Source of the DNA: Parapedobacter composti
GTDB lineage: Bacteria > Bacteroidota > Bacteroidia > Sphingobacteriales > Sphingobacteriaceae
Assembly (NCBI RefSeq): GCF_900112315.1
Contig: NZ_FOLL01000003.1
Span: 124,001-188,000, forward strand
Direction: 5' to 3'
DNA length: 64,000 bases
Below are positions 34,125 to 53,204 of this stretch, one piece after another (positions within the stretch are counted from its first letter, which is position 1; every line of letters starts with the position of its first letter). The notes beneath the pieces were generated by a model that ran no database searches, was not told the origin of the DNA, and saw only the letters and a list, made by a program, of their open reading frames with translations. The position numbers and the translations under genes are program-made.

Positions 34125-34146
34125 CGTTTTTGCAAGTTTTGTCCCA

Positions 34147-37100
34147 TTAAAAAGAAGCCATCACCCCCATGGTAAATCGCTTAGACAGCGGGTAACCACC
34201 ATAGTCGGTGCCCGGCTGCGTGTTTTCTCCCGTTCCTGATCCGCCTGCGTTGTTAGCTTCGGGGTTCGCTCCCGGATACCGCGTGAAGGTATGTAGGTTA
34301 TCGGCCATGACGTACAGCCGGACAGTGCTTACCCCCCACCGCTTCAGCGCCGCGTGGGCGAAATTATAGCCCAGCGTTACGTTGCGAATGCGCACGAAGG
34401 TGGCGTCGTATATCCAGGTGTCGTTATAGACCGGGTTGACGCCCACTACGCTTGGTGTTTCGCCGTCCCAGTCCATCGCTATACCTTCAGGGATATTGGC
34501 CGCAAACCGCGCTGGCTTATAGGCATGCAGCCAATCGCGGTATTGATTGGTGCCTTCGCCCAATCCATTGTTGAAGCCCCGCCTGCCCAGGTAAAACAAC
34601 TGGCCCCCTTGCTGTCCTTGGATATCAAAGCTGAAATCGAATCCGCTATACGTCAGCCTGTTGGACAGTCCCCAGAGAAAGTTGGGCTGCGCATTGCCAA
34701 CAACGGTGTGATCCTGTTCGTTGATTTCTCCGTCGTTGTTGAGGTCGACGATTTTTACATTACCCTCCAGTTGCCCATTGATGACAGGCACCAGCGGGTT
34801 GCCCGCGGCATCGAAGTCTTCCGGCATGAGCAGGCCATCGGTTTTGTACATGTAGAAGCTGCCGATGGGCTCGCCCACGATGGTGGCGTATGCATTGAAG
34901 TCATTCAGCGTGGTGAGCATGATCAGTTGGTTAATGCCGGGTGCGAGAGCTGACACCTTGTTGCGGTTTCTGGAGAAGTTCACGGAGGTGGTCCAACTAA
35001 AAGATTCCGTCTGAATGTTCTGTGTGGTGAGCTCCAGCTCTATCCCTCTGTTTTCCACCTCACCCACGTTCCGCCTGATGGACGAGAAGCCGCTTACCCG
35101 CGTTACGGGCACATTGAGCAGCAGGTCGGTTGTTTTATTGAAATATACATCGGCGGTAAGCCGGATACGGTCGTCCAGCAGCCAGAAGTCCAGTCCGATA
35201 TCCCGCGACAGCGTGGTTTCCCAGCTCAGGTTCCGGTTAGCGATATTGGTGGGGACAAGCCCGTTGACTAGCTTACCGTTCAGGTTGTAGTCTTGCCTGC
35301 CTAACAGCGAGATATGCTCGTAGTTTCCGATCCGGTCGTTACCCGCCTTACCGATGGCTGCCCGTATTTTCAGCAGTGATAGCCACTCAACATCCCGGAG
35401 GAACGGCTCTTCATTCAGTTTCCATCCCGCCGAAACCGCCGGAAACAGGCCCCACTTATTGTTCGGGCCGAAACGGGAAGACCCGTCATACCGTGCGCTG
35501 ACGGACAGCAGGTATTTATCGCGGAACTGATATTGCGCCCTACCGAAGAAGGAGGTAACGGCACTCTCACCGATGGTGGTGCTTGCGAGCGTGGGGTTGT
35601 TGGCGTTGTTTAACGTGGGTAGCAGGTCATTGGGATAACCATCCCCAGCCGCCGCGAGGATTTCTTGCCGCGTATGCTCATAGCTTTGGCCCAGTAACAG
35701 TTCCAACGCATGATCCTCACCCAGAATCGGCCGGTATGTGGCTGTATTCTGCAAGCTGAAGACGTAGTTGTCTGTACTGGATGCATAGCCGTTGGCTTGT
35801 GCGCCCCGGTTTACGTTGGCGGGAGTAAATTCGTTGTAAGCAGCATGGGCTGATATATACCCCAGTTGGGTGCGCAATGTTAACCCCTCTGTAGGAACAT
35901 ACTCGGCGAAACTATTGATTTGCAATTCACTCGCTTTGGCGCGGGCGGTCATTTCGCGGAGGCGGGCCAAGGGATTCACATACGTCTGGGCCGGTGAATA
36001 GCCGGTGGCTTCGGTATTCTGGTCGATGCCGACCACCGGCGGCATCGCTAATGCATAGTGTGCATTGCTCTCCTTGCCATCGGTTTCGGGGTCGTCCATG
36101 CGATTGAATGATGCGGCCACATTGGTACCCAGCCTTATCCTTTCACCGACATTGAAGCTGGTGTTGGCCCGCAGGTTATATCGCTCAAAGCCTGTATAAC
36201 GCATGACTCCGTCCTGCTTGAGGTAGGAGCCGGACAGCAGGAAGGTGCCCACGTCGCCACCCCCCGATACGGTGAGCGCATAATTCTGCATGGGGGCCCG
36301 TTGGTAAACCACGTCCTGCCAGTTGTTGTTGGGTAAGGAGGCCGGATTAAGGTAGCTTTCGGGGTACTGGTATTCCGCCGGGCGACTGGATAAGGGGGCC
36401 GACAGGTCGCCTCCGATTTGTTGGAACCGCGAATCGCGCAGATAGCGGATGTAAGCGGTGTACTCATAAGTATCCATCATCGGCAGGAAGCGATCCACCT
36501 GCTGGAAACCGGCATAACTGCTGAAATCGACTTTGGTGGTACCGGCCGTTCCGGATTTGGTGGTGATGACGATTACGCCGTTACCGCCCCGTGCGCCGTA
36601 GATAGCGGCGGAAGAAGCGTCTTTCAACACCTCGATTGACGCAATATCGCGAGGGTTTACATTGCGCATGTGGTCTTGTGGAATACCGTCGATGACGTAC
36701 AGCGGATTGCTTGAGGCGGTGATGGAATTGAGCCCGCGGATTTTGATGTTTGCTGCCCTGCCCGGGGCGCCGGAGGTCTGGCTTACGCGTACCCCCGCAA
36801 TTTTGCCGGCAATGCCCTCTTCGGTATTGGTGATGGCATTGTTCTGAAAGGCACTGCCCTGCAACGAGCTTACAGCGCCCGTAAGGTTTTCGCGCTGCAC
36901 CGTACCATAACCGATAACCACTACCTCGTCAAGCGTTTGTGCCGCCGCAGGGGTTAATACGATGGTCTGCCCGTTGGCAATACTCACGGGGATTTCAAAA
37001 GGTTCGAACCCCAGCATGGAGAACTCCAGCATGGCCGATGTGTCTGCCGGCACCTGAACTTCAAATCCGCCGTCGCTACCCGTCTGCGTAAGGGGCTGCT

Positions 37101-37344
37101 GCCCTTTTAATTGGACGGTGACACCGGTAAGCGGCCGTTCTTGCGGGTCGGTTACTTTCCCACGGATGACTTTCAGGCTATCCTGTTGGTTAGATGGAGC
37201 CTGCTGGGGGTCGGCCGCTTGCGTGGTGGTGTCCTGTTGGAAAGATGACCCATATGCGTATAAAGGAGCGCCGGCTGGCGGGAGCAGAACATAGAGGCCA
37301 ATGCTGATGAGTGTGAAGAGCAGCTGCTTTTTTGGGGTGTCCAT
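34147..37344 (-). CDS. SusC/RagA TonB-linked outer-membrane transporter (pair 1)
   Basis: A protein of 1065 residues. A signal sequence is followed by a low-complexity Gln/Thr stretch, then a carboxypeptidase-regulatory domain at about 58-130 (IRGKVTDPQERPLTGVTV). A TonB-box-like region (DEVVVIGYGTVQREN), the plug (KIRGLNSITASSNPLYVIDG, EVLKDASSAAIYGARGGNGV) and a 22-strand-type barrel ending in FTMGVMASF complete it. With SusD it imports a ligand using TonB energy. It diverges from the hybrid sensor gene across a 258 bp gap. A weak TATCTTTT box at 37470-37477 might be its promoter. Confidence 0.96.
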   Translation of the reverse strand: MDTPKKQLLFTLISIGLYVLLPPAGAPLYAYGSSFQQDTTTQAADPQQAPSNQQDSLKVIRGKVTDPQERPLTGVTVQLKGQQPLTQTGSDGGFEVQVPADTSAMLEFSMLGFEPFEIPVSIANGQTIVLTPAAAQTLDEVVVIGYGTVQRENLTGAVSSLQGSAFQNNAITNTEEGIAGKIAGVRVSQTSGAPGRAANIKIRGLNSITASSNPLYVIDGIPQDHMRNVNPRDIASIEVLKDASSAAIYGARGGNGVIVITTKSGTAGTTKVDFSSYAGFQQVDRFLPMMDTYEYTAYIRYLRDSRFQQIGGDLSAPLSSRPAEYQYPESYLNPASLPNNNWQDVVYQRAPMQNYALTVSGGGDVGTFLLSGSYLKQDGVMRYTGFERYNLRANTSFNVGERIRLGTNVAASFNRMDDPETDGKESNAHYALAMPPVVGIDQNTEATGYSPAQTYVNPLARLREMTARAKASELQINSFAEYVPTEGLTLRTQLGYISAHAAYNEFTPANVNRGAQANGYASSTDNYVFSLQNTATYRPILGEDHALELLLGQSYEHTRQEILAAAGDGYPNDLLPTLNNANNPTLASTTIGESAVTSFFGRAQYQFRDKYLLSVSARYDGSSRFGPNNKWGLFPAVSAGWKLNEEPFLRDVEWLSLLKIRAAIGKAGNDRIGNYEHISLLGRQDYNLNGKLVNGLVPTNIANRNLSWETTLSRDIGLDFWLLDDRIRLTADVYFNKTTDLLLNVPVTRVSGFSSIRRNVGEVENRGIELELTTQNIQTESFSWTTSVNFSRNRNKVSALAPGINQLIMLTTLNDFNAYATIVGEPIGSFYMYKTDGLLMPEDFDAAGNPLVPVINGQLEGNVKIVDLNNDGEINEQDHTVVGNAQPNFLWGLSNRLTYSGFDFSFDIQGQQGGQLFYLGRRGFNNGLGEGTNQYRDWLHAYKPARFAANIPEGIAMDWDGETPSVVGVNPVYNDTWIYDATFVRIRNVTLGYNFAHAALKRWGVSTVRLYVMADNLHTFTRYPGANPEANNAGGSGTGENTQPGTDYGGYPLSKRFTMGVMASF

Positions 37345-37602: not shown

Positions 37603-40600
37603 ATGCAACGCTTTTGGGGAATATCGTTGGTTATGTGCTGTTGGCTGCGGTGTATTCCGTTGCCGGCCCAGTCCATACAATTTCAGCAATTGAGCATCGC
37701 CGAAGGATTGTCTCACAACCATGTAACGGCAATTGTGAAAGATTTTCAGGGGTTTATGTGGTTTGGAACCCCGGCGGGCCTTAATCGCTATGACGGGCAC
37801 GAAATCAAAATTTACCGGCACGCCCGCGGGGATGAAAACAGCCTGATGGATAACAGTATCAACCAGCTCTTCCTCGGGCCGGGCGGCAGGCTATGGGTGG
37901 GCACCGGATCGGGTTTCTGCGTTTATGACCCGAACACCGATCAATTTATCCGGCAGGCAGACAGCTTATTATCCGCAATGGGGATACCGGGGGGCGAGTT
38001 GCTGTCAATAGCACATGACGAAGCGGGTAGGTTTTATTTTTTGCATCATAACGGAACGTTATATCAGTATGATACGCGCCGGAAAAAACTGAGTGGATAT
38101 ACGGACAGCCTGTCGGCTCCGTTTAGCGGAATGGCGCTGGACAAGAACGGAGAAGTGTGGTTGGCCAATGCGTCTGGACACGTCAGACGGATTGAACCGG
38201 AAGGACTTACGATCCGATGGTCGGCGTCCATTCATGCGCCCGGCGAGGAGGTGTTGGCGCACTATCAGATTTTTGTTGACGGGGCTTTCCGGCCGTGGGT
38301 GTATGCCAAAAACCTGCCGATCGGAGTATATTGGTGGGCAGATACGCTAAAACGTCCTCGGCATATACACACGGGGTCCGGTAATATGAGGCTTAACAAT
38401 AATCTTGTGTTCAATATTGCGGAAGACCAAGAAGGCCGCGTTTGGCTGGCCACAGACCACGGAGGCATAAACCTGCTTGTGCCTGATACGGATGGTGCCG
38501 ATTACTTGGTAAACGATGAATTTAACGACCGTAGTTTGGCGCACAACAGTGTGACGGCGCTTTATCATGACCGCGAAGGAGGGATGTGGGTTGGCACGTT
38601 TAAGGGCGGCTTAAGCTATCATCACCCGCATCAGATCCAGTTTGCGTTGTACAAACATCAACGGGGGGCTCCAAGGAGCATTCCCTTTGATGACATTAAT
38701 CGCTTTGTTGAAGACGAGAAAGGCAATATCTGGATAGGTACCAATGGCGGCGGGTTGATTTACTTTGACCGGGCGGCAAACCAGTTTTCGCAGTACCGCC
38801 ATAATCCGGCGGATCCGCGTAGCCTAGGCAGCGATGTGATAGTTAGTCTTTACATTGACCGTGAGCACACGTTGTGGGTGGGCACCTACCATGGCGGGCT
38901 CAACCGCTTTGACGGGAAGGGGTTTGTCCGGTATACATACCAACCGCATGATTCGGGAAGTATCAGTGATAACAGTGTCTGGGAAATCTATGAAGACAGC
39001 GAGGGCCGGTTTTGGGTGGGGACGTTGGCCGGCGGACTTAACTTGCTGGATAGGCAACGGGGAATATTCACCCGGTTAGCTTACGGGCCGGACCAACGGT
39101 TCCGTTCTTCTTATATCTCTGCCATCATGGAAGATCATCTCGGGCATATCTGGATAGGTACGGCAACGGGGATTGAAGTCTGGGAACCTAAATCGGGCCG
39201 CTGCCGTTATTACTCCTACGACCGAAACAATCCAAATAGCCTGAGTAATGACTATGTGACGGCCATCTGCCAGGATAGGCAACAACGGATATGGGTGGCC
39301 ACACGGGAAGGGCTTAACCGCTATTTGCCAGATACAGACAGTTTTGAGGTATTCACGGAGGAAGACGGCCTGCCCGAAAATACCGTGCTTACCATTGTGG
39401 AAGACTTGGAGGGAACCCTTTGGTTGAGTACATCGCGGGGGCTTTCAGCACTCACGGAAAAAGCGGGAAAGGTGCCGGCATGGCGTATTCGGAATTATAA
39501 CCGGAATAACGGCTTGCAGCATGCAGTGTTCAATGAGAATGCGGCGCTTTGTCTTTCCAGCGGAGAGGTGGTCTTCGGAGGGCCAACCGGGTTCAATATC
39601 ATTAACCCTTACCATATTGTTGAGGCCGCGTTGACTGCGAGACCCAAGTTGACAGACTTTCAACTGTTTAACAGCAGTACGCCAAGCGCCTTATGGGTAG
39701 GAAAAGACGAGATAGCCCTTTCGCATGATCAGGACGTGCTCAGTTTTGTGGTGGCTTCCTTGCAGTTCGTGCAGACCGACAGGGTGTATTTCCAGTATAA
39801 GCTGGAGGGGTTTGACGAACAGTGGCTGGTGATGGACAGGCATACCCGGAAAGCCACCTACACCAACCTGGATCCCGGGGGCTATCGTTTTCAAATGCGT
39901 GTATCGCTGGATAATGAAACGTGGAGCGAGCCCTATGCATTGGCCAATATAACCATAGCGCCACCTTTTTGGAAAACAACATGGGCATATTCTCTTTACT
40001 GTGGCTTGTTTCTGCTGGTTCTTTGGTCCGTTCGGCATATCGAGCGGAGACGTGAGAAAACCCGGTTTGCGCTGCAACGCGAACGGGAAGAGGCCCGCCG
40101 CATCCGGGAGCTGGACCAGTTGAAAACGCGGTTTTTTACCAATGTGAGCCATGAATTCCGCACCCCGATAAACCTGATACTGACGCCCTTGGACAAACTG
40201 GAACAGTGTTTACCGGACCTGGCCATGAAAAGGCACCTTGACGTGGTGCGGCGCAATACGAAGCGGTTGCTTAACCTGGTTAATCAGCTGCTGGATTTCC
40301 GGAAGATGGATACCGGGGCGCTGAAGCCGAACATGGCTGCGGGCGATGTCGCCGAGGCGATCCGTGAGCATTTCAACTCGTTTATCGATCTGGCCGAGAG
40401 CAAGCAAATAGCCTATCACCTCACGATGACGGAAGACCGGGTGGACGCCTGGTTTGATCCGGATAAGCTGGAACGTATCCTGTTCAACTTGCTTTCGAAC
40501 GCCTTTAAATTCACGCCGGTAAGTGGCGCGGTTTATTTGGATGTTTCATTTATGCCCGCGAACGGGAACCCCAAGCGGGAGGTAACCATCGTGGTGCGGG

Positions 40601-41631
40601 ATACCGGTATAGGCATACCTGCTGAAGACCAGTCCAGGATATTTGCCCCGTACTTCCAGCATTCAACACCAACGGATCTGCTCAATCAGGGCAGCGGTAT
40701 CGGGCTAGCTATTGTGAAGGAATATGTGCAGTTGTTAGGGGGACGCATCGCTGTGGCCAGTGCTGCGGGCTCGGGCAGTACCTTTACCGTGGTGCTGCCC
40801 CTGGATTCGCCGGCCCAGGGCCAGCCTGCAGAGGATGTGCCCAAGCAACCGGAGCGAAAGATTGTGGCAGCGCACCAGCGCAAACGCGTATTGCTGGTGG
40901 AAGACGATTGCGATTTCCGGTTTTACCTCAAAGACAACCTGCGTGAGTTTGCCACGATACAGGAAGCCTCGGATGCCCGGGAGGGGTGGGCGCAGGCATT
41001 GGCCTTCCGCCCGGATATTATTATCGCGGATGTGAGCATGCCCGGTGATGACGGCGTTTCCCTGTGCCGGCGGCTGAAAGGCGACAGCCGGACCAAGCAT
41101 ATACCGGTGATACTGGTTACGGCTATGGTTGATGAAAGCACGCAGTTAGCGGGCATCAATGCTGGTGCTGCCGATTGCATAACCAAACCGTTCAGCTTTG
41201 AATTGCTGCGCTCAAAAATAGACAGCCTGCTCCGGCAGAAGGATACCATGGAACAGACGTTCAAAAAGCGCCTGGAGGTACGGCCGGCAGATGTCGCAAC
41301 GGAATCTATGGACGAGCGGTTCATGCGTAAAGCCCTTGATTTGGTGGAGCAGCATATGGGCGATCCGGATTTCTCCGTGGAGCGCCTATCATCGTTGCTG
41401 AACATGAGCCGGGTAGCATTGTATAAAAAAATATTAGCCCTTACGGGACATACTCCTTCTGAATTTATCCGGAATGTGCGGCTGCGGCGGGCTGCAACTT
41501 TGCTGGAGCACTCGGGCATGAATGTGGCCGAAGCGGCTTATGAAGTAGGCTTTAGCAGTCCCAAGCAGTTTAGCCGTTATTTTAAGGCGCTTTACAACAC
41601 GCTTCCATCTAATTTTCGCAAAGAGGCATAG
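37603..41631 (+). CDS. Hybrid two-component system sensor/regulator (HTCS)
   Basis: A one-protein signalling system of 1342 residues. Signal peptide at 1-24. A periplasmic two-propeller sensor follows, built of repeats such as GFMWFGTPAGLNRYDG and NIWIGTNGGGLIYF. Next come a Y_Y_Y domain (about 715-785), a membrane segment (about 793-812), HisKA with H850 in NVSHEFRTP, an ATPase domain (LLSNAFKFTP, GSGIGLAIV), a receiver with D1143 in IIADVSMPGDDG, and an AraC-type helix-turn-helix at the C-terminus (MNVAEAAYEVGFSSPKQFSR). Such proteins bind an oligosaccharide in the periplasm and activate the adjacent polysaccharide locus. The downstream enzymes suggest a xyloglucan fragment. Confidence 0.96.
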   Translation: MQRFWGISLVMCCWLRCIPLPAQSIQFQQLSIAEGLSHNHVTAIVKDFQGFMWFGTPAGLNRYDGHEIKIYRHARGDENSLMDNSINQLFLGPGGRLWVGTGSGFCVYDPNTDQFIRQADSLLSAMGIPGGELLSIAHDEAGRFYFLHHNGTLYQYDTRRKKLSGYTDSLSAPFSGMALDKNGEVWLANASGHVRRIEPEGLTIRWSASIHAPGEEVLAHYQIFVDGAFRPWVYAKNLPIGVYWWADTLKRPRHIHTGSGNMRLNNNLVFNIAEDQEGRVWLATDHGGINLLVPDTDGADYLVNDEFNDRSLAHNSVTALYHDREGGMWVGTFKGGLSYHHPHQIQFALYKHQRGAPRSIPFDDINRFVEDEKGNIWIGTNGGGLIYFDRAANQFSQYRHNPADPRSLGSDVIVSLYIDREHTLWVGTYHGGLNRFDGKGFVRYTYQPHDSGSISDNSVWEIYEDSEGRFWVGTLAGGLNLLDRQRGIFTRLAYGPDQRFRSSYISAIMEDHLGHIWIGTATGIEVWEPKSGRCRYYSYDRNNPNSLSNDYVTAICQDRQQRIWVATREGLNRYLPDTDSFEVFTEEDGLPENTVLTIVEDLEGTLWLSTSRGLSALTEKAGKVPAWRIRNYNRNNGLQHAVFNENAALCLSSGEVVFGGPTGFNIINPYHIVEAALTARPKLTDFQLFNSSTPSALWVGKDEIALSHDQDVLSFVVASLQFVQTDRVYFQYKLEGFDEQWLVMDRHTRKATYTNLDPGGYRFQMRVSLDNETWSEPYALANITIAPPFWKTTWAYSLYCGLFLLVLWSVRHIERRREKTRFALQREREEARRIRELDQLKTRFFTNVSHEFRTPINLILTPLDKLEQCLPDLAMKRHLDVVRRNTKRLLNLVNQLLDFRKMDTGALKPNMAAGDVAEAIREHFNSFIDLAESKQIAYHLTMTEDRVDAWFDPDKLERILFNLLSNAFKFTPVSGAVYLDVSFMPANGNPKREVTIVVRDTGIGIPAEDQSRIFAPYFQHSTPTDLLNQGSGIGLAIVKEYVQLLGGRIAVASAAGSGSTFTVVLPLDSPAQGQPAEDVPKQPERKIVAAHQRKRVLLVEDDCDFRFYLKDNLREFATIQEASDAREGWAQALAFRPDIIIADVSMPGDDGVSLCRRLKGDSRTKHIPVILVTAMVDESTQLAGINAGAADCITKPFSFELLRSKIDSLLRQKDTMEQTFKKRLEVRPADVATESMDERFMRKALDLVEQHMGDPDFSVERLSSLLNMSRVALYKKILALTGHTPSEFIRNVRLRRAATLLEHSGMNVAEAAYEVGFSSPKQFSRYFKALYNTLPSNFRKEA

Positions 41632-41638
41632 CAAAATT

Positions 41639-41663
41639 GGGCTTGTTGTTAACGAAACAACCC
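41639..41663 (+). terminator. Possible terminator hairpin after the hybrid sensor
   Basis: GGG-C-TTGTT / AACAA-CCC can pair with one bulged C and an eight-base loop, eight bases after the stop. No T-tract follows, so it is weak. Confidence 0.25.
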
Positions 41664-41707
41664 GATATTGTAAACATAACACACCCCCGTGAGGAAGGGC
41701 GGGTCGC

Positions 41708-41715
41708 TACTTTTG
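41708..41715 (+). promoter_or_regulatory. Minus-7 promoter box for the GH31 operon
   Basis: TACTTTTG matches TAnnTTTG exactly, about 93 bases before the GH31 ATG. No TTG is seen at the usual distance, as expected if the hybrid sensor must activate the promoter. Confidence 0.5.
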
Positions 41716-41808
41716 TGCTTAAGCTAACCGTTGCCGGTATCAATGACGCCGGACGGATGGACCAATTGTTACCGCGGATACAAGCCGAGACTATATTGAT
41801 TAGAAACC

Positions 41809-44661
41809 ATGAAGCTGACACTTATTGCATTATTATTGCTTTTCAATGTCGTTATGCCATCGTTGGCAAACGATGAAATCGCCGCGTTCAGGCGCACGGA
41901 CACTGGGGTGTCTATCGTATATCAGGGATTACCAACATCGATTGACCAGCGCGTATCGCTTGAAGTTATTGCCGACGGCATTATCCACGTTGCTTCGGCA
42001 CCACTGAACAGCCAAGCCCCTGTCCGGAAGTCGCTGATTACGGTAGACACACTACGCAGCATGGCCAGCGACTGGACCATGGAAGCAATCGGCGATACGC
42101 TCATATTGCGTACGGCAACACTGCTGGCGAAGGTGTCTTTGCGTACGGGCGTCGTGGATTTCCGCGACCGGCATGACCGCCCGATAGTGGCCGAACAACG
42201 GCGCGACAGCCGGACGTTTGCAGCGGATGCTTATGACGGTGATGCCTTTTACCGGATCCGCCAGGGATTCCGCGTATCGGAAAACGAAGGGCTGTACGGG
42301 CTGGGCCAGCACCAGAACGGCGTGATGAACTATCAGGGGCGCCAGGTAACCCTGCTCCAGTACAATACCATGATAGCCATTCCGTTTTTGCTATCTACCA
42401 AAAACTACGGTATTCTGTGGCATAATTATTCAATTACGAAAGCCGGCGACATCCGGCCTCTAATGCCGCTTTCGGCATTTAAACTGCACGCCGCCGATGG
42501 GCAGCAGGGCTGGTTAACCGCTACATACCGTGACAGGCGCGAGCCGGAGAAGCTGTGGTTAACCCGTCCGGAATCGGATATTGCATACCTGTATCTGAGC
42601 GACCAGCATAAGTTACCCCAGGAGGTAGACTTGGCGAATGCGCTGGTTGAATACGAAGGCAAAATCGAATCACCTTATACCGGTTTGCATCGCCTGCATT
42701 TTACATACTCGGGATATGTCAGCGTGTGGGTGAACGGCGAACTCAAGGAAGATCGCTGGCGCGAATCCTGGAACGCGGGCTCTTTTGAAATCGATATGCC
42801 CATGGTTGCGGGCGAACAACACTCCGTGCGCATTGAATGGCGGCCGGATGGCGGACAGGCCTATTTGGGCGTCCAATGGCAACGGCCCATCAGTGAGTCC
42901 GATAAGACGCTGTTTTCATTCGGTTCAGAGGCGGGGGATGCCGTGGATTATTATTTCATAGCAGGCAATGACATGGATGAGGTGATTGGTGGATACCGTC
43001 AACTTACCGGCCGTGCGCCCATCATGCCCCGGTGGTCGTTCGGGTTTTGGCAGAGCCGTGAGCGCTATAAGACCCAGCAAGAACTGGAAGACGTGGCCGC
43101 GGAGTTCCGTAAGCGGCGCATCCCTATTGATAACATGGTTCAGGATTGGTCGTACTGGCGCGAACACGATTGGGGAAGCCACGACTTCGATCCCGAGCGT
43201 TTCCCCGATCCGGAAGGCATGGTAAAGCGCCTACACCGCAATAATTTCAGGGTAATGATTTCGGTATGGCCTAAAATCAACGAAGCGTCCAGTGTATACC
43301 AGCGGTTCAAAGATAAGGGGTGGCTGTATATGCGAAACATTTATGACGGGCGCAAAGACTGGATAGGCAAGGGATATACATCCACGTTTTATGATCCGTT
43401 CAACCCCGAAGCGCGGCAGGGATTTTGGGAACTGATGAATGAGAAATTGTATAAGAAAGGCTTCGATGCCTGGTGGATGGATGCGAGCGAGCCGGATATC
43501 CATTCTAACATCAACATCAACGAGCGCAAATCGGTGATGCAGCCGGCCATCGGCTCGTCGGTTCGGTACTACAATGCCTACCCCCTGGAGAATGCGCGAA
43601 GTATTTATGAGGGCCAGCGGCAGACGGATCCTAACAGGCGGGTATTCATTCTCACTCGTTCGTATTTTGCCGGTCAGCAGCGTTATGCCGCTGCGGCGTG
43701 GAGCGGTGATATTTCTTCCCGTTGGCACGATATGAGCGATCAGATTGCGGCCGGTGTCAATTTTTCAATGTCTGGCGCGCCGTACTGGACAATGGATGCT
43801 GGCGGATTTTTGGTTGAAAAGCGGTTTCACCGGCCGAACACGGACGATCTGGAGGAGTGGCGTGAGCTGAACGCGCGATGGTACCAATTCGGAGCGTTCT
43901 TGCCTGTGTTCAGGGCGCATGGGCAGTTTCCGTTCCGTGAACCGTTCAACATTGCTCCTGAAGGGCATCCCGCTTATAACAGCATGCTGTACTATATCAG
44001 CCTGCGCTACCGTTTGCTGCCCTATATTTATTCCCTGGCGGGGAAAACATACGTTGACAATTATACCATGATCAGGGGGTTGGCCATGGATTTTGGCGAT
44101 GACGAGCGCGTCTTGGATATCAATGACCAATATCTGTTCGGCGCTTCGTTACTCGTCAACCCGGTTACCGAAAAAGGGGCTACATCCCGGACGGTGTATC
44201 TGCCTAAAGGGCCGGGCTGGTATGATTTCCATGGCGGCGGTTATCATGCCGGGGGCCAAACAATAACTGCCGCTGCACCGTATGAGCGTATGCCGCTTTT
44301 TGTAAAGGCCGGCAGCATTATTCCGGTGGGTCCTCCGTTGCAGTATACCGATGAGAAGCCGCCCAAAGAAATTACGCTGCTGGTTTATGCAGGAGCCGAC
44401 GCCTCCTTTACGCTTTATGAAGATGAAGGCACCAATTACGATTATGAGCGTGGGCAGTACAGCACCATATCGTTTACTTACGACGATGAGGGACGGCAGC
44501 TCGTGATTAGCGACCGCAAGGGAAACTATAAGGGCATGTTGAAGAACCGGAGGTTCAATGTGGTATATGTGGATGCGCGGCAAGCGCAAGGGTTTGACAA
44601 TGCCCCCCGGAAGGCCAAAGCCATCACATACAGTGGAAAGGAGAAACGAATAGCATTATAA
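41809..44661 (+). CDS. GH31 alpha-xylosidase-like enzyme with PA14 insert
   Basis: A glycoside hydrolase of 950 residues. A signal peptide (1-20) is followed by the N-terminal beta-sandwich. A PA14 domain is inserted at about 265-362 (LHRLHFTYSGYVSVWVNGEL, HSVRIEWRPDGG). The catalytic barrel has nucleophile D558 in WWMDASEPD and acid/base D634 in AWSGDISSRW. GH31 enzymes with a PA14 insert in xyloglucan loci (for example BoGH31 and CjXyl31A) are alpha-xylosidases, so removal of xylose from imported xyloglucan oligosaccharides is the best guess. Alpha-glucosidase activity is the main alternative. The likely place is the periplasm. Confidence 0.92.
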   Translation: MKLTLIALLLLFNVVMPSLANDEIAAFRRTDTGVSIVYQGLPTSIDQRVSLEVIADGIIHVASAPLNSQAPVRKSLITVDTLRSMASDWTMEAIGDTLILRTATLLAKVSLRTGVVDFRDRHDRPIVAEQRRDSRTFAADAYDGDAFYRIRQGFRVSENEGLYGLGQHQNGVMNYQGRQVTLLQYNTMIAIPFLLSTKNYGILWHNYSITKAGDIRPLMPLSAFKLHAADGQQGWLTATYRDRREPEKLWLTRPESDIAYLYLSDQHKLPQEVDLANALVEYEGKIESPYTGLHRLHFTYSGYVSVWVNGELKEDRWRESWNAGSFEIDMPMVAGEQHSVRIEWRPDGGQAYLGVQWQRPISESDKTLFSFGSEAGDAVDYYFIAGNDMDEVIGGYRQLTGRAPIMPRWSFGFWQSRERYKTQQELEDVAAEFRKRRIPIDNMVQDWSYWREHDWGSHDFDPERFPDPEGMVKRLHRNNFRVMISVWPKINEASSVYQRFKDKGWLYMRNIYDGRKDWIGKGYTSTFYDPFNPEARQGFWELMNEKLYKKGFDAWWMDASEPDIHSNININERKSVMQPAIGSSVRYYNAYPLENARSIYEGQRQTDPNRRVFILTRSYFAGQQRYAAAAWSGDISSRWHDMSDQIAAGVNFSMSGAPYWTMDAGGFLVEKRFHRPNTDDLEEWRELNARWYQFGAFLPVFRAHGQFPFREPFNIAPEGHPAYNSMLYYISLRYRLLPYIYSLAGKTYVDNYTMIRGLAMDFGDDERVLDINDQYLFGASLLVNPVTEKGATSRTVYLPKGPGWYDFHGGGYHAGGQTITAAAPYERMPLFVKAGSIIPVGPPLQYTDEKPPKEITLLVYAGADASFTLYEDEGTNYDYERGQYSTISFTYDDEGRQLVISDRKGNYKGMLKNRRFNVVYVDARQAQGFDNAPRKAKAITYSGKEKRIAL

Positions 44662-44730
44662 ACCGTAATAAACCATTACCCGGAGCCACCGGCGGCAACG
44701 GACAAATAACCAATATTAACTGATAATGAT

Positions 44731-47700
44731 ATGATAACAAAAGAACGACTAAAAAGGAAGCTATGGCTTGCTGTATTGCTTTCTGTTGCCGGCACCGCTG
44801 TATTCGCTCAGTCGATTACCGGCAGCGTATTATCCTCGGACGATGGCAGCCCCATTGCGGGGGCGAGTGTGCAGGTGAAGGAGGGGGCAGACGCGGCAAT
44901 GACCGATGAGCGCGGGCGGTTCATCATCACCGCACAGCCCGGTGACCCGCTTATCGTAAGTTTTGTAGGCTACATCACACAGGAGCTGGCTGCGCGGGAC
45001 GGGATGGTTGTTCGCCTGGAGCCATCGGTGTCAGACCTGGAGGAAGTGGTGGTGGTTGGTTATGGTGTGCAGAAGAAGAAGTTGCTTACCGGAGCCAACT
45101 TTCAGGTGTCTGGCGAAGACATCCAGCAACGAAACCAGTTGAATCCGCTACAGGCGCTGCAAGGGCAGTCGCCGGGTGTAACCATCCTCTCCACCTCCGG
45201 TCAGCCCGGAGCCGATATGAAGGTTACCATCCGCGGGCTGGGGACCATCGGAGACGCTAGTCCGCTTTACATCATTGACGGGGTGCCCGGTGATATCAAC
45301 ATTCTGAACCCGGCGGATATTGAATCCATCGACGTATTGAAAGATGCAGCGTCGGCGGCGATTTACGGTGCCCAAGCCGCCAATGGCGTGGTGTTGGTTA
45401 CCACCAAATCCGGTGCAAGCGGCCGTGGGCAGGTTTCGTTTGATGCCTTCAAAGGGGCGCAACAGATAGCCCGGTATGCCCGGCTGTTGAATGCTGAGCA
45501 ATATAAGGTCATCATGAACGAGCAGGCGGTCAATTCCGGCGTGGCGCCATACGACTTCAACGCGATGGAAGGGCTTGGCGACACTGACTGGCTGAGCCAT
45601 ATGTTTAAAGACAACGCCAATATGGAAAACTATTCATTGAACATTGGTGGTGGATCTGAAACGTCAACCTATGCCCTGTCATTGAACTATATTACCCAGG
45701 AAGGGATTGTGGGTGGCAAAGATGTATCGAACTACGATCGCTACGGTTTTCGTATCAACAGCGAACATAAGTTGTATAAAGACGTGCTGAAGGTTGGCCA
45801 GCACCTGAACCTCAACTTTATCCGGAATACAGGCATTGCCGTGGGCAACCAATATAACAACACGTTGAGAGGTGCATTTTCTACTTCGCCACTTACCCCC
45901 GTTTATGGCGATAATAACCGCTTCGGCAGCCCCTATTATGATTCCAGTTTTTCACCGTGGTACAAGTCTGATGGCAACCCTTACGGCATGATGATGACCA
46001 CCACGAACAACATCAACGATGCTCAACGGCTAATGGCCGACGTGTACGCCGAATTGCAGCCTATTGAAAGGCTTCGTATCCGATCAGTGCTGGGCATTAA
46101 TTATTACGCCAATGAGTACCGGAACTTTACGCCGTTGTATCAGTTTTCTGAACTTAGTTATAATGTAGACCACACCACCGCTTTGCAGAACATAGGCAAA
46201 GGCCATACCATTACTGCCATCAATACGGCAAGTTATGATTTCCTTTTGGATGGTGGGCATACTTTCGGCGCATTGATAGGTATGGAAGCACAGCGCTACC
46301 AGGGCACGTTTCTACAAGGGTCGAATTGGAACCTGCTCTCACAGTTCAATGATTTTGCCCACGCTTACCTGGATAACACCACGGGGCAGGCTCATTTAGA
46401 CGATGAGGGTAATATTGTGGAGACCCGGCAGGTAAGCGGTCGGCCGGAAAACCTTTACCGCAGGGTATCCTATTTCGGGCGTCTGGATTACAATTATCAG
46501 GAAAAATACCTGTTCAATGCAACGTTACGGGCCGACGGCTCATCCCGGTTTTCCAGGGGCAACCGGTGGGGATACTTCCCTTCGTTTGCCGTGGGCTGGG
46601 TGGTCACCAACGAGGCGTTTTTCAATGAAGCGGGATTAGGGTGGCTTGATTTCCTGAAATTCCGCGGAAGTTGGGGGCAGGTAGGTAATCAAAACGTGGG
46701 AGATTTCCAGTTTGCCGCGCCCATCAATACCTCAACGGGCTATTCCGCAGATAATCCGGCGGCATTCTATGTCTTTGGTACGGGCAATGTCAATGTGCCT
46801 GGGGCATACCCCAGCCGCCTCTCCAATCCGGGACTACGGTGGGAAACATCTGAACAGACCAACGTGGGCCTGGATGCTCGTTTGTTCAATAACCGGTTAG
46901 GTGTGGTGGCCGATTACTACGTGAAGCACACCAAGGATTGGCTCGTACAGGCTCCCGTCTTGGCCACTGCCGGGGCGCTGCCTCCTTTCATCAACGGCGG
47001 AAGCGTGAAGAACACGGGCGTGGAACTCGCACTGAATTGGAACGACCGGCAGGGTGAGGTGGGATACAGCCTGGGTATCAATGGCGCTTATAATAAGAAT
47101 ACTGTGGGCCAGATACCTACCCAGGACGGGATCATCCATGGGCAGACCAATATGCTTTATGCGAATGCTGATGAATTTTACCGTGCAGAAAACGGCCATC
47201 CCATTGGCTATTTCTGGGGCTTCAAGACCGACGGTATCTTCCAGAATCAGGCAGAAATTGATGCATGGCGTGATGCAGGCTATGGCATCCTGCAGAGCGA
47301 TGTGCGGCCGGGCGATGTCAGGTATGTAGACGTAAACCACGATGGGGTGATCAACCAGTACGACAAAGTGAATTTGGGCAAGGGAATGCCGGATTTTACC
47401 TATGGCATCAACTTGGGGTTGAGTTACAAAGGAGCGGATTTTTCGGTCAATGCCTACGGTGTGGCCGGCAATGAACTGGTACAAGCCTATCGGGATCCGG
47501 GAACGCGGCAGGCCAATTATACTACTGCCATCCTGGAGCGGTGGACCGGCGAGGGAACCTCGAACCGGATACCGCGCGTGACTGAAACCAACATCAATTG
47601 GCGCTTTTCTGACCTGTATCTTCAGGACGGCAGTTTCCTGCGGGTGAGCAACATCACCCTCGGATATGATATTTCAAAGCTCGTTCGGTGGTCTTATCTC

Positions 47701-47868
47701 GGACAAGCCAGGATTTATTTCCAGGCCCAGAATCCGTTTACGTTTACCAAATACGACGGTATGGATCCCGAAATCGGATATGGCACGGATGGCTGGGCGC
47801 CGGGCATCGATCTGGGCTACTACCCGCGGCCACGGGTGCTGATGATAGGGACAAACATCAAATTCTAA
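44731..47868 (+). CDS. SusC/RagA TonB-linked outer-membrane transporter (pair 2)
   Basis: A protein of 1045 residues. Signal peptide (cut after AVFAQ), carboxypeptidase-regulatory domain (ITGSVLSSDDGSPIAGASV), TonB-box-like region (EEVVVVGYGVQKKKL), plug (TIRGLGTIGDASPLYIIDGV, DVLKDAASAAIYGAQAANGV) and a large barrel that ends in VLMIGTNIKF. It lies 70 bp after GH31 and ten bases before its SusD. It should import oligosaccharides released at the surface by the GH5 enzyme of the same operon. Confidence 0.96.
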   Translation: MITKERLKRKLWLAVLLSVAGTAVFAQSITGSVLSSDDGSPIAGASVQVKEGADAAMTDERGRFIITAQPGDPLIVSFVGYITQELAARDGMVVRLEPSVSDLEEVVVVGYGVQKKKLLTGANFQVSGEDIQQRNQLNPLQALQGQSPGVTILSTSGQPGADMKVTIRGLGTIGDASPLYIIDGVPGDINILNPADIESIDVLKDAASAAIYGAQAANGVVLVTTKSGASGRGQVSFDAFKGAQQIARYARLLNAEQYKVIMNEQAVNSGVAPYDFNAMEGLGDTDWLSHMFKDNANMENYSLNIGGGSETSTYALSLNYITQEGIVGGKDVSNYDRYGFRINSEHKLYKDVLKVGQHLNLNFIRNTGIAVGNQYNNTLRGAFSTSPLTPVYGDNNRFGSPYYDSSFSPWYKSDGNPYGMMMTTTNNINDAQRLMADVYAELQPIERLRIRSVLGINYYANEYRNFTPLYQFSELSYNVDHTTALQNIGKGHTITAINTASYDFLLDGGHTFGALIGMEAQRYQGTFLQGSNWNLLSQFNDFAHAYLDNTTGQAHLDDEGNIVETRQVSGRPENLYRRVSYFGRLDYNYQEKYLFNATLRADGSSRFSRGNRWGYFPSFAVGWVVTNEAFFNEAGLGWLDFLKFRGSWGQVGNQNVGDFQFAAPINTSTGYSADNPAAFYVFGTGNVNVPGAYPSRLSNPGLRWETSEQTNVGLDARLFNNRLGVVADYYVKHTKDWLVQAPVLATAGALPPFINGGSVKNTGVELALNWNDRQGEVGYSLGINGAYNKNTVGQIPTQDGIIHGQTNMLYANADEFYRAENGHPIGYFWGFKTDGIFQNQAEIDAWRDAGYGILQSDVRPGDVRYVDVNHDGVINQYDKVNLGKGMPDFTYGINLGLSYKGADFSVNAYGVAGNELVQAYRDPGTRQANYTTAILERWTGEGTSNRIPRVTETNINWRFSDLYLQDGSFLRVSNITLGYDISKLVRWSYLGQARIYFQAQNPFTFTKYDGMDPEIGYGTDGWAPGIDLGYYPRPRVLMIGTNIKF

Positions 47869-47877
47869 CCGAAAACA

Positions 47878-49506
47878 ATGAAGATTATGAAACCTTTATT
47901 TTTCCATATAGCCGCATTTTTCGGGCTTGCCTTTGGGTCGGGCTGTTCAGGCAGCTTTCTGGACATCGATCCGATGACGAGCATCCTTGACCAGAATTTC
48001 TATAAAGATATCAACGATGCCGAAATGGCCCTGATAGGGTGTTACGACGGCTATCAACGGACCGCTTCAAATGGGAGTTTTGCCTTTCCTGTGGTTTCTG
48101 AGGTGCTGTCTGACAACTGTTTCGGGGGCACTGGCCATGGCGACGGTCGCAATTATCAAGTGTTGGATCGCTTTGACCAAGCACAGTCTTCGGCAGATGA
48201 GAACATTTTCAATGGCACATGGACCGATTACTACGCCGGTATCTTCCGATGCAACACGCTGCTATCGAAATTGGACGGTACGGACTTCAGTGGCAATCAG
48301 GCCGCGCGCAACCGTATTGAGGGGGAAACCAGGTTTTTGCGGGCCTTGATGTATTTCGATATGGTGCGTCTTTTTGAACGTATTCCGCTGCTCACCGAGC
48401 CTACCACGGAAAACCTGCCGCAAGCTGACCCTACAGATACGTATAAGCTCATTGTGGAGGATTTGCTGTTTGCTGCGGACAATATTCCGGCGGACGCTTA
48501 TCCAAAGGCCAGTGCGGCGCAAAATGACGGACGCGTAACACCTTACGCCGCCAAAGCACTGCTGGCGAGGGTATACCTGTTTTACACTGGCTATTACGGG
48601 CGGGATGACCTGGGCGTTAGCAAGGCTCAGGTGTTGCAGGGCGTTGAAGATATCATTACCAGCAACGAATATAGGCTGGTGGACGACTTTAAGTCGCTCT
48701 GGCCGGCAGCCAGCTATGTGCCGGAGCCAGAAACGAACACCCTAGATCGTTCTGGCTATGCCGGCAAGGGAAACAGTGAAGTGGTGTTTGCCCAAAAATT
48801 CAACAACACCCAGAATTACAGCGGCATGGTAGACGGAAATGCGTGGCTCGTTTTGCTGGGGCTGCGGCAGACCCGCTTTTCGCCCTATGGGATTGGCTGG
48901 GGGGCCTGCACGGTCAATCCCCGGTTGGTCAACGCGTTTTCTGCCAACGATCCTCGCCGGAACGCTTCCATCTTGGATATCGTTGCGGAAGGGGTGCCTA
49001 CACGGGATTTGTTGCCTGAGCAGCGGGAATATACCGGTTATATGAACAAAAAATATATGCCCACGGCCTTGCCGGACGGCACCGACGATGTGGGCGGCGA
49101 AGGCGACTTCATGATTTCACAGGATCAAGACTACATCGTAATCCGCTATGCCGATGTGCTGCTGATGGCCGCGGAATTGGGGTCACACAATGCCCAGGAG
49201 TATTTTGACCAAGTGCGTGGACGCTTGGGGCTGGGAAGCAGGCCCGTATCGCAGGAAGCGATTATGGAAGAGCGGCGGCTGGAGTTTGCGTTTGAAGGTA
49301 TCCGGTACTGGGATTTGTTAAGACAGGGGCTGAACACCGCCGCGGCCACCATTGCGCAAACTCAGCATGTGTTGAGCGGCAATGCTCCTGATCAGGTGGT
49401 TATAGAGGGCGCGAAAATCCAGCAAAAGCGCGGATTTATGCAGATTCCGATGACGCAGATTACGCTGTCTAAAGGCGTGCTGACACAAAACGAAGGATGG
49501 AATTAA
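47878..49506 (+). CDS. SusD/RagB nutrient-binding outer-membrane lipoprotein (pair 2)
   Basis: A surface lipoprotein of 542 residues with the lipid-anchor Cys in FGSGCSG. SusD features include LDIDPMTSILDQNFYKDIND at the N-terminus, GETRFLRALMYFDMVRLFE in the TPR region and ERRLEFAFEGIRYWDLLRQG near the end. It forms the lid of the preceding SusC and binds glycan. A second in-frame ATG seven bases in (47887) is also possible. Confidence 0.95.
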   Translation: MKIMKPLFFHIAAFFGLAFGSGCSGSFLDIDPMTSILDQNFYKDINDAEMALIGCYDGYQRTASNGSFAFPVVSEVLSDNCFGGTGHGDGRNYQVLDRFDQAQSSADENIFNGTWTDYYAGIFRCNTLLSKLDGTDFSGNQAARNRIEGETRFLRALMYFDMVRLFERIPLLTEPTTENLPQADPTDTYKLIVEDLLFAADNIPADAYPKASAAQNDGRVTPYAAKALLARVYLFYTGYYGRDDLGVSKAQVLQGVEDIITSNEYRLVDDFKSLWPAASYVPEPETNTLDRSGYAGKGNSEVVFAQKFNNTQNYSGMVDGNAWLVLLGLRQTRFSPYGIGWGACTVNPRLVNAFSANDPRRNASILDIVAEGVPTRDLLPEQREYTGYMNKKYMPTALPDGTDDVGGEGDFMISQDQDYIVIRYADVLLMAAELGSHNAQEYFDQVRGRLGLGSRPVSQEAIMEERRLEFAFEGIRYWDLLRQGLNTAAATIAQTQHVLSGNAPDQVVIEGAKIQQKRGFMQIPMTQITLSKGVLTQNEGWN

Positions 49507-49525
49507 TCATAAATGGACATACATT

Positions 49526-51475
49526 ATGAAAAAGTTAATAAAGAGATCTGCCGGGTTGCTACTTCTGGCGATGGCAGTTTTTGGCTGTTCGCCCGAGGAC
49601 TTCGACCTCGGTGCGGTGGACGTGAAGCCCGAAGATCTGGTGCCGGGCCTCGCCTTTACCATAGAGCACGATTCGGAAAACCCGAATATCGTATACTTGA
49701 CCTCGTTGATGGACAAACGGTATACGCCACTGTGGGAACATCCGCAAGGACGGAGCCAGGATGCCCGGGTAACCCTGCGCATTCCATTCGAAGGTATTTA
49801 TGAAGTGAGGTTTGGTGTGCAAACGCGGGGAGGTGCCGTTTACGGCGAGCCGGTGACGTTTACGATAGATGAGTTTTATGCTGGGTTTGTGGAGCATGAA
49901 CTATGGACCCTACTCACCGGGGGCATCGGGCAATCCAAAACGTGGATACATGACAATGGGCAGTATGGCCTCGCCAGCGGAGAATTGGATTATGCCGATC
50001 CATCTACCACGGTGGAGTGGAACAACTTTACCCCAAACTGGTCGCCCGGCCGCGGCCATACCGGCGATCCCAACATCTGGGAAAGCTCGATGACCTTTTC
50101 GCTGAAGGACGGCGCTTTTTACAATGTAACCAATAAAACGGCCGATGGCGCCGTAGAACAGTCGGGCACGTTCATGCTGGATATGGATAACCATACGCTC
50201 ACCATTACCGGAGCGGACCTTATGCATACACAGGGGTGGCACAACAAAACGACGAATTGGTCCAGAGGCCTGAAGCTGCTGACGTTGACCGAAAACCAAC
50301 TGCGGGTAGCTGTGCTCCGGGAAGAGATATCCGGTGAAAGCGAGTGGTGGTTAATCTGGAATTTTGTAGCCAAGGAGTACGCCGATAATTATGTGCCGGA
50401 GGAACGGCCGGATCCTGTGCCCCCCATTGATGGCAACGGGCAGGATGTTATTTCAACCACCCGGACGAAAACATGGGTGCTCTCTCCGGAAACGCCCTAT
50501 GACTGGGCGGATCTGGAGGGCAACCTGCTGAATAATTTCTCTGGGCCGGAAGCTTACCTCTCTTCCGAATGGGCAGCTTACAACTTAGACATGATAAACG
50601 CCACCAAGCTCACGTTTAGTGCGCTGTCTGCCACCACCGGTAGATTCGTGTTCACGTCGTATGACGGTGAGCCGGTGGAAGGCGAATATACCGTCGACCA
50701 GAATAACGATATCGATTTTGGCCAGCCATTGAATGCGGTGATCAGCGAATCCGATTTTGGCTGGATAAGCACGATGAGACTGGGAACCTCTGCCGAGAAC
50801 AAATTACGTATCGTTAAGACGAAGGCCGATGCATTTGGCAACGTTACCGACATGTGGCTGGGGCAGCGGTCGGCTGAAAAAGAGGAATACATGGTTTTTC
50901 ACTTTGTGATAGGCAGCGGCGGCGGATCTACGGATCCCTTGCAGGGCTGGAAGAGCGCGCTGGCAGGAAAAACCTTTAAGCCAGACGTCAACTGGTTTGT
51001 GGATTGGGTGGGATTCCCCCCCGGCTTTGAAGGCGGGTGGACATCCGCTAGCACGTTCGGCAACGACTTTACGTCGAATTCCTGGGTCTGGGATGCTAAT
51101 GTCCGGGCCGTAGCTGAAAGCGCGTCTCTACGCTTTTTCATGGCAGGTGACCAGATGAAAGTAGAGCTGATACAGACCAAGGCGGGTCAGCCGCATAGCG
51201 CTGTTGGCAGCGTTAACATTGATACGGAAAACAATATACTGAACATCGATATCCCGTTGGTAGACTATGCCGGCACGGTGGCCGGCTGGTTGGGTACGAC
51301 CAATGATAAATCGATTACCGGGAGCACGAACGACTGGTATTTTGTGCCGCACGGTGGGTCTAACCTGAGTAATATTGCCACCAATGGTTTTTGGTTGGGA
51401 CGTGTGGCCAACTCCACAGCAGCGGGGGATGATAACGACGAAATTTTAATTTTCCATTATGTGCTGGTCAATTAA
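49526..51475 (+). CDS. Putative surface glycan-binding lipoprotein with three repeated modules
   Basis: A lipoprotein of 649 residues (lipid-anchor Cys21 in AVFGC). It takes the position of the surface glycan-binding protein in SusC/SusD operons. Residues 35-115 form an immunoglobulin/PKD-like domain (RIPFEGIYEVRFGVQTRGG). Three Trp-rich modules follow, at about 127-285, 310-463 and 473-649. Each opens with a KTW or KTF motif (QSKTWIHD, TKTWVLSP, GKTFKPDV) and closes with a hydrophobic strand (WWLIWNFV, YMVFHFVIG, ILIFHYVLVN). The closing strands look lipocalin- or beta-sandwich-like. I do not recognise a named family. It overlaps the GH5 gene by 17 bp. Confidence 0.75.
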   Translation: MKKLIKRSAGLLLLAMAVFGCSPEDFDLGAVDVKPEDLVPGLAFTIEHDSENPNIVYLTSLMDKRYTPLWEHPQGRSQDARVTLRIPFEGIYEVRFGVQTRGGAVYGEPVTFTIDEFYAGFVEHELWTLLTGGIGQSKTWIHDNGQYGLASGELDYADPSTTVEWNNFTPNWSPGRGHTGDPNIWESSMTFSLKDGAFYNVTNKTADGAVEQSGTFMLDMDNHTLTITGADLMHTQGWHNKTTNWSRGLKLLTLTENQLRVAVLREEISGESEWWLIWNFVAKEYADNYVPEERPDPVPPIDGNGQDVISTTRTKTWVLSPETPYDWADLEGNLLNNFSGPEAYLSSEWAAYNLDMINATKLTFSALSATTGRFVFTSYDGEPVEGEYTVDQNNDIDFGQPLNAVISESDFGWISTMRLGTSAENKLRIVKTKADAFGNVTDMWLGQRSAEKEEYMVFHFVIGSGGGSTDPLQGWKSALAGKTFKPDVNWFVDWVGFPPGFEGGWTSASTFGNDFTSNSWVWDANVRAVAESASLRFFMAGDQMKVELIQTKAGQPHSAVGSVNIDTENNILNIDIPLVDYAGTVAGWLGTTNDKSITGSTNDWYFVPHGGSNLSNIATNGFWLGRVANSTAAGDDNDEILIFHYVLVN

Positions 51476-53204
51476 ACAAACCGGCCTGTCGGTCTGGCGC
51501 CCCCGCTATCCGGCATGGGCGCCGGCCTGGATTTTCGGATTGGTGTTTATACTTCTTAGTGCGAGCTGCTCCAAAAAGGCGGATGTTCCCGAGCCGGAGC
51601 TTAAAGTTTCTACGGATGCCCTCCATCTGGATGCCGACGGAGGCGAAACTTTCTTTCATGTAGCGGTCAATATGAACTGGAGCGCTTCCAGTTCGGACCT
51701 TTGGTGCATATTACCTGTCACGGCGGGCGATGCGGGGACCACGAAGGTGGCGGTGCAGATTGCCCCGAACGCCGGCGTGGAGCCACGGAATGCGACCATC
51801 ACCGTGAATGCCGGCGCGCTCAGCCAGCAGATTAAGGTTACGCAGGAGGGCGCGATTACGCTGGATGTTGAGCAAGATGAATATGAAATAGGAGCAGCCG
51901 GCGGAGCGATAGCCGTTGGTGTAATGGCTTCGGAGGCTTTTCAAGTGGAAGCGGATTCCGACTGGATTGAGAAGGCGGCCGAGCCGGATGCTGCCGGCAC
52001 GGCGAAATTCATCATTAAACCGAATCCCTCCGTGCTGGAGCGCCAAGGTCTAATCCGCTTTGTACTGGCAGGGCTTATTCGAAATGTAACGGTACGTCAA
52101 TCGGGACAGGAAGCCGAAATTCCTGCAGACAAAAGCGGGGTGGAGCGTGACGCCCCGGCGCTGGTGCGACAGATGACGGTAGGCTGGAACCTCGGCAACG
52201 CGCTGGAGGCTGGCAGCAGCCCCCTTGTGGCCGATGAAACGCTCTGGGGTAACCCCAGGACTACCAAAGCCCTGATTGACGCGGTTAAGCACGCCGGATT
52301 CAATGCCGTGCGCATCCCCTGCGCTTGGAGCGGTTACATGGAAGACCAGGCCAGCTACCGGATAAGAGAGGACTGGCTGGCGCGGGTTAAGGAAGTGGTG
52401 GATTATTGCCTGGATAACGACATGTATGCCATTATCAACACCCATTGGGACGGTGGGTGGCTGGAAGAACACCCGCTGTATGCGCACCAGGAAGCGGTGA
52501 ACCGAAAGTTCGGTGCCCTGTGGAAGCAGGTTGCGGTTTACTTCAGGGATTACGACGAGCGACTGCTTTTTGCCGGAACGAACGAAGTGCGAGCTAATTA
52601 TGACGCGCCTACGGCCGAGCACATCGCCGTGCAGCTTTCTTATAACCAGACGTTTGTGAATACGGTGCGGGCCACCGGCGGAAGAAACGCCTACCGCAAC
52701 CTCGTTGTACAGGCATACAACACGAATATTGAACACGCTGTTAACCACCTGCGGTTGCCTGACGATAGCGAACCCGACCGGCTGATTGTGGAAGTGCACT
52801 ATTACGATCCCTACGACTTCACATTAGACCAGAATAGTGACAAGTACCTTTGGGGCAGCGAATACCGGGGGCATGCACAGGTTTCGTCCTGGGGCCAGGA
52901 AGAGTGGGTGGATCAGACGTTCGCTAAGATGAAAACTCACTTTATCGACAAAGGTGTCCCGGTTATTCTCGGCGAATACGGTGTGATGCGGCGCGCGGCG
53001 CCTGCGGGCATACTGGCGGACCATGTGCGGTCCAGAAACAGTTATCTGCGGTATGTGACGAGGGCGGCCCGGCTAAGCGGAATGGTTCCGTTTTACTGGG
53101 ATAGTGGCCATACCGGCAACAACGCCTCGGGACTGTTTAACCGTGGTGCAGCTACCCCTGTTCATCAGGATGCCATTTCGGCCATTGTGGGCGCGGTACC
53201 TTAG
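51459..53204 (+). CDS. BACON-GH5 endo-glucanase, probable endo-xyloglucanase
   Basis: A surface lipoprotein of 581 residues. The signal sequence has a long basic start and the lipobox LSASC. Two BACON domains lie at about 45-130 and 133-215 (DADGGETFFHVAVNMNWSAS; GAAGGAIAVGVMASEAFQVE). The GH5 barrel runs from about 225 to 580, with GWNLGNALEA, the acid/base E376 in AGTNEV and the nucleophile E506 in ILGEYG. The wording around these residues fits subfamily GH5_4. BACON plus GH5_4 is the layout of BoGH5A, the surface endo-xyloglucanase of Bacteroides ovatus. Other beta-glucans are possible. The ATG overlaps the previous gene by 17 bp. Confidence 0.92.
   Translation: MCWSIKQTGLSVWRPRYPAWAPAWIFGLVFILLSASCSKKADVPEPELKVSTDALHLDADGGETFFHVAVNMNWSASSSDLWCILPVTAGDAGTTKVAVQIAPNAGVEPRNATITVNAGALSQQIKVTQEGAITLDVEQDEYEIGAAGGAIAVGVMASEAFQVEADSDWIEKAAEPDAAGTAKFIIKPNPSVLERQGLIRFVLAGLIRNVTVRQSGQEAEIPADKSGVERDAPALVRQMTVGWNLGNALEAGSSPLVADETLWGNPRTTKALIDAVKHAGFNAVRIPCAWSGYMEDQASYRIREDWLARVKEVVDYCLDNDMYAIINTHWDGGWLEEHPLYAHQEAVNRKFGALWKQVAVYFRDYDERLLFAGTNEVRANYDAPTAEHIAVQLSYNQTFVNTVRATGGRNAYRNLVVQAYNTNIEHAVNHLRLPDDSEPDRLIVEVHYYDPYDFTLDQNSDKYLWGSEYRGHAQVSSWGQEEWVDQTFAKMKTHFIDKGVPVILGEYGVMRRAAPAGILADHVRSRNSYLRYVTRAARLSGMVPFYWDSGHTGNNASGLFNRGAATPVHQDAISAIVGAVP

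Follow-up and report, generated by a model that had tools for sequence, protein, structure and literature searches.

The closest described system to the locus reported here is the xyloglucan utilization locus (XyGUL) of Bacteroides ovatus, in which a BACON-GH5_4 endo-xyloglucanase and a PA14-containing GH31 enzyme are combined with a SusC/SusD pair and a second surface binder, and which we take to include an HTCS-type hybrid sensor as well. For the GH31 enzyme, BoGH31, parts of PMC4967831 describe Asp553 as the nucleophile, Asp630 as making contact, and Trp316 and Trp513 as surrounding the PA14 site. The GH5 enzyme, BoGH5A, is placed together with CjGH5D in GH5_4 subclade 2D, with Trp252 tied to full xyloglucan activity, in parts of PMC11892949. 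The same parts of that paper describe the XyGUL of an environmental member of the Bacteroidota, Flavobacterium johnsoniae (Fjoh_0772-0782), which likewise has a subclade 2D GH5_4 with Trp252 and a SusCD pair, and a locus type that additionally has GH39 and CE20, among others; our likening to it is by description. As regards glycan capture, the laminarin-binding SusD of Gramella (GMSusD, 6gcz) is described in part of PMC11351036, and SGBP-B of B. fluxus (7kv5-7) was solved with laminaritriose and mixed-linkage glucotriose.

We analysed a stretch of 64,000 nucleotides of the Parapedobacter composti genome, hereafter the window. Six open reading frames on its forward strand, at 37603-53204, form the locus, and a divergent pair absent from the original prediction adjoins it:

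37603..41631, + strand: HTCS (Pfam: Reg_prop, Y_Y_Y, HisKA, HATPase_c, Response_reg, HTH_18)
41809..44661, + strand: predicted GH31 alpha-xylosidase with PA14 insert (Pfam; 955 bits against BoGH31A, 5jou)
44731..47868, + strand: SusC-type TonB-dependent transporter (TIGR04056, 835.7 bits; Pfam plug and carboxypeptidase-regulatory domains)
47878..49506, + strand: SusD-type surface lipoprotein (Pfam; top solved match 6gcz)
49526..51475, + strand: predicted surface glycan-binding lipoprotein, SGBP (matches 5jmb and 7kv5-7)
51459..53204, + strand: BACON-BACON-GH5_4 lipoprotein, predicted endo-xyloglucanase (Pfam; top solved match BoGH5A, 3zmr)
32658..37344, - strand: adjoining SusD/SusC pair, divergent from the HTCS gene

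The positions of the open reading frames and the Pfam domains agree with the gene order, single strand and domains first proposed. From the HTCS through the SGBP gene the spacing is 177, 69, 9 and 19 bases, and the SGBP and GH5 genes overlap at 51459-51475. The HTCS unites a propeller, Y_Y_Y, kinase, receiver and AraC-type HTH on a single chain. TAnnTTTG is a promoter motif of Bacteroidota, and a raw count, made without a chance control, found one site each in the gap before the HTCS gene, in the gap before the GH31 gene and past the GH5 gene. Inspected by eye, the N-termini of SusD, SGBP and GH5 carry a lipobox-like Cys, and that of GH31 a signal peptide without lipobox, which fits a GH31 in the periplasm and a GH5 on the surface.

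Both enzymes point to xyloglucan. The best solved matches of the GH31 were BoGH31A (5jou, 955 bits), 7kmp (914) and 2xvg (880); each of these three is an alpha-xylosidase according to its deposition, and so is the fourth match at 296 bits. Its PA14 domain occupies residues 270-360, ahead of the barrel at 404-743 (Pfam), and the residues aligned with BoGH31 Asp553, Asp630, Trp316 and Trp513 are all kept (the solved-chain numbering being that of PMC4967831 plus one); the PA14 insert with the counterparts of Asp553, Asp630 and Trp316 places it among xyloglucan alpha-xylosidases of the PA14-bearing GH31 type. The best solved matches of the GH5, a full-length lipoprotein in which the catalytic glutamates of the TNE and GEYG motifs are both kept, were BoGH5A (3zmr, 335 bits) and then CjGH5D (5oyc, 309 bits). 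Trp stands at both candidate positions for BoGH5A Trp252 (query 330 and 334), in an HW-GGW stretch also present in all seven GH5 proteins of relatives that were read. Which of the two equals Trp252 depends on a numbering offset that we in part assume. Based on the nearest solved matches, the two glutamates and the Trp site, the enzyme is assigned to GH5_4 subclade 2D, and the membership in subfamily 4 on which the original prediction depended is thus borne out at the level of sequence.

It was also proposed that the GH5 has two BACON modules where BoGH5A has one. The difference holds, with a weak second module (E 0.00086 and 19.7 bits for a hand-typed piece scored alone, against a Pfam cut-off of 25), but it is not distinctive. 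By eye, five of the seven GH5 proteins of relatives have two BACON modules (L004, with an unclear start, among them), that of L034 has one and that of L006 none, and we therefore rejected the double BACON as a novelty.

The binding half of the locus has other affinities. Among solved structures the SusD matched GMSusD at E 1e-49 and the B. ovatus xyloglucan SusD, BACOVA_02651, at 4e-16. The SGBP, with a PKD/Ig-like N-terminal domain followed by more beta-rich stretches, had no Pfam family above the cut-off, and its sequence matches were limited to 5jmb, entitled as the N-terminal domain of a novel cellulase of B. coprocola (residues 34-122), and B. fluxus SGBP-B (residues 1-200), the nearest solved relative after the single domain 5jmb. 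Its structural model (mean pLDDT 65.9, pTM 0.44) was trusted only where structure and sequence matches agreed. Close kinship to SGBP-A/B of the B. ovatus type was found for neither protein, and with 6gcz, 5jmb and SGBP-B as nearest relatives the capture part is of a lineage other than that of B. ovatus. In Flavobacterium, stretch L007 carries a related SusC-SusD-SGBP set beside GH2, a 30% identical GH31, GH97 and GH3 (Pfam), so the transporter type does not seem to be bound to xyloglucan; L008 and L009 resemble it in the related set and a 30% identical GH31, as seen without a Pfam scan, and the glycan target of all three is likely to differ.

Of 151 family genomes, 20 have the SGBP, a count that includes the own genome, and stretches were taken from 13 of the 19 others. 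GH31-SusC-SusD-SGBP was present in all 13, and the window locus is, judged by homology, an ordinary XyGUL core. The HTCS gene lies upstream in 12, an A1 gene (see below) intervening in G055. Past the SGBP gene, GH5 follows in four (G102, G019, G090 and G003) and A1 in three (G087, G058 and G004); G055 has A1 ahead of GH31, and five show neither. The SGBP of G003 (G003:C104:17216-19269; L014, L036) is represented by two open frames, one matching the query over residues 1-484 (40%) and the other over 443-648 (71%), either by a frameshift or by exchange of the C-terminal domain. GH2 occurs in 11 of the 13 loci, and some also have GH3, GH43 or GH95; none was seen for GH2 in G003 and G087, which belong to the genus of the window. 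Outside this set, a Cytophagales MAG (L004) has a similar set with GH95, and a Bacteroides MAG (L005) has GH5-GH31-GH2-GH3 on a stretch that starts inside SusD. In the Prevotella stretch L006, a 696-aa protein with no Pfam match above the cut-off (L006:11843-13930) lies between the SGBP and GH5 genes.

GH31 orthologs of more than 70% identity are present in seven of nine genus genomes, the own one counted. The form of the window, with the locus beside BipA, is common to three genus members (the window, G003 and G087), with an HTCS ortholog ahead of GH31 in G003 (60%) and G087 (62-70%, split in two pieces); on the other flank G003 matches the window and for G087 no match was seen. Four other genus members have HTCS-GH31-SusC-SusD at sites without a visible BipA, with a SusC of only 44-45% identity and no match to GH5, A1 or GH2 within the stretch read. 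Unlike the B. ovatus XyGUL, the window locus lacks GH2, GH3, GH9 and GH43, and no gene of these families or of GH95 was noticed in the window (Pfam for the locus and a few neighbours, lists of open reading frames by eye for the remainder). The locus had been described as minimal, and this description stands; G003 and G087 share the minimal form. Exo-enzymes encoded elsewhere had also been foreseen: the own genome holds, above the cut-off, three GH3, six GH2 and four GH95 genes, besides three GH5 including that of the locus, so that GH2, GH3 and GH95 genes do exist elsewhere, with substrates that can only be predicted.

A1 is a family of approximately 580 aa, mostly lipoproteins, distantly similar to GH51; examples at the GH5 position of GH31 loci are L043:8001-9782 (G087), L040:11525-13267, L044:7816-9561 and L065-L094. 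Four members (one partial) gave nothing above the cut-off against Pfam searched to E 10, and three gave a weak NCBIfam arabinosylfuranosidase match (E 1e-7 to 1.6e-4). Alignments of 3, 24 and 35 rows were made. With the 24-row profile the sole solved matches at E <=0.01 were arabinofuranosidases, at least partly labelled GH51 (best 1.2e-8), and the 3-row profile also matched the hyaluronoglucuronidase 7eyo (E 3.4e-4). Glu256 and Glu395 (L043 numbering), in NE and EWN motifs, are invariant in all 35 rows. A1 had no match among viral contigs, nor the A1 of G087 among plasmids, where the GH5 had a single distant match; the titles and abstract openings of open-licence literature yielded nothing on A1 or an alternative endo-xyloglucanase. 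Tandem A1 pairs occur in L123, L124, L125 and L127; in L124 and L125 the second copy is shorter and without the N-terminal lipobox Cys, so that the two are perhaps surface and periplasmic forms.

In G087, which shares the BipA-side flank with the window and has a 73% identical GH31, A1 stands where the window has GH5. We searched 301 family genomes for the GH31 ortholog (E 1e-200) and for GH5_4-like and A1 genes (E 1e-50), and detected them in 77, 32 and 47 genomes, respectively; absences are soft, as at most two to four candidates were scored per genome. Among the 77 GH31-positive genomes, 20 had a GH5_4-like gene, 16 had A1, 41 had neither and none had both, against 4.2 expected (hypergeometric 0.004, kinship ignored). 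The best A1 was on the GH31 contig in 16 of 16, at 0.07-14.7 kb, and the GH31-A1 gap was 6.1-6.4 kb in 12 of them, as compared with 6.6-7.0 kb between GH31 and GH5 where these two are adjacent, which is so in nine genomes. In these nine, GH5 lies within 7 kb of GH31; in four others of the 20 the distance is 18-23 kb, and in the remaining seven GH5 is remote or on a different contig. Mapped on a 28-row GH31 tree (from which L042 was omitted, its genome being that of L132), the content of the position required 8 changes, with a minimum of 2 and a shuffled mean of 12.9, whereas the GH5 label alone required 6 against 6.4 shuffled and thus clustered no more than by chance.

One reading of these patterns is that the place of the surface enzyme is an exchangeable slot, and that A1 is an undescribed family of surface endo-xyloglucanases substituting for GH5_4; we put this forward tentatively, as a possibility with somewhat less than even chances. 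Against exclusivity, A1 and GH5 co-occur in 10 GH31-negative genomes, and this GH31 type appears in only nine of the 20 A1 stretches that were read (mostly the best-scoring), the other 11 being without it (L126 has one just beyond the stretch). Against an endo function, the kinship with GH51 suggests that A1 may be an arabinofuranosidase; the 41 GH31-positive genomes without either gene also count against it, as does the GH39 of Flavobacterium loci, for which PMC11892949 reports a proposed role on arabinose side chains.

The nearest solved relatives of the SusD and SGBP of the window locus bind laminarin or hold laminari- and mixed-linkage oligosaccharides, which would suit a locus aimed at a different beta-glucan of plants, either mixed-linkage or beta-1,3, with the GH5 as a broad beta-glucanase. 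It is hard to see, however, what a BoGH31A-type alpha-xylosidase would do on a glucan that bears no substituents, the GH5 keeps the Trp site linked to xyloglucan activity, and loci of relatives contain GH2 and, in two cases, GH95; such a target therefore seems very improbable to us. The locus could also chiefly scavenge xyloglucan oligosaccharides freed by other organisms, the surface GH5 being accessory. This would agree with the 41 of 77 GH31-positive genomes, since at the thresholds used the transport and GH31 part can occur apart from GH5_4-like and A1 genes, but among endo-enzymes that count covers these two families, and the window GH5 is full-length, lipidated by prediction and catalytically intact in both glutamates, so we hold scavenging as the main role to be unlikely.

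The adjoining SusD/SusC pair, being adjacent and divergent in both the window and G087, might belong to the same regulon and import a second xyloglucan product. Orthologs of its SusC (34147-37344) at 66-84% identity occur in six of eight other genus genomes. G045, however, has the pair beside BipA in a genome without an ortholog of the window GH31, G003 lacks it in the BipA-HTCS interval, and in G028, G068, G078 and G093 the SusC orthologs are approximately 150 kb from GH31 or on a separate contig. No glycosidase gene was seen on the BipA side of the pair. On account of G045, G003 and the scattered placement we rejected the pair as a part of the xyloglucan core and judge it to be an independent locus; there is little to recommend a shared regulon.

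We consider it very likely, on present sequence comparisons, that the window carries a minimal xyloglucan utilization locus, as was originally proposed: SusC/SusD, a PA14-GH31 and a putative surface endo-xyloglucanase constitute the XyGUL core by homology, and this reading draws on the solved structures closest to the two enzymes, the kept residues and the presence of GH2, and in some cases GH3, GH43 or GH95, in loci of relatives. The window locus has none of these four in place and is read as a minimal variant, since enzyme sets differ among loci. The gene content is observed directly; from it, the substrate, the sites of the proteins, their induction and the part played by distant enzymes may be predicted as follows. 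At the cell surface the lipoprotein GH5_4 would cleave xyloglucan, with the chain held by the SGBP and SusD, and SusC would take in the oligosaccharides; GH2, GH95 and GH3 enzymes from elsewhere in the genome would strip galactose, fucose and backbone glucose, and the HTCS would detect an oligosaccharide and switch the operon on.

The window most probably holds a pared-down version of a locus type already known, a version that two or more further species of the genus also have. In some relatives its GH5 position is taken by A1, an unnamed enzyme-like family. With xyloglucan-type enzymes standing beside beta-glucan-type binders, the binding and cutting parts of such loci seem to be separately recruited.
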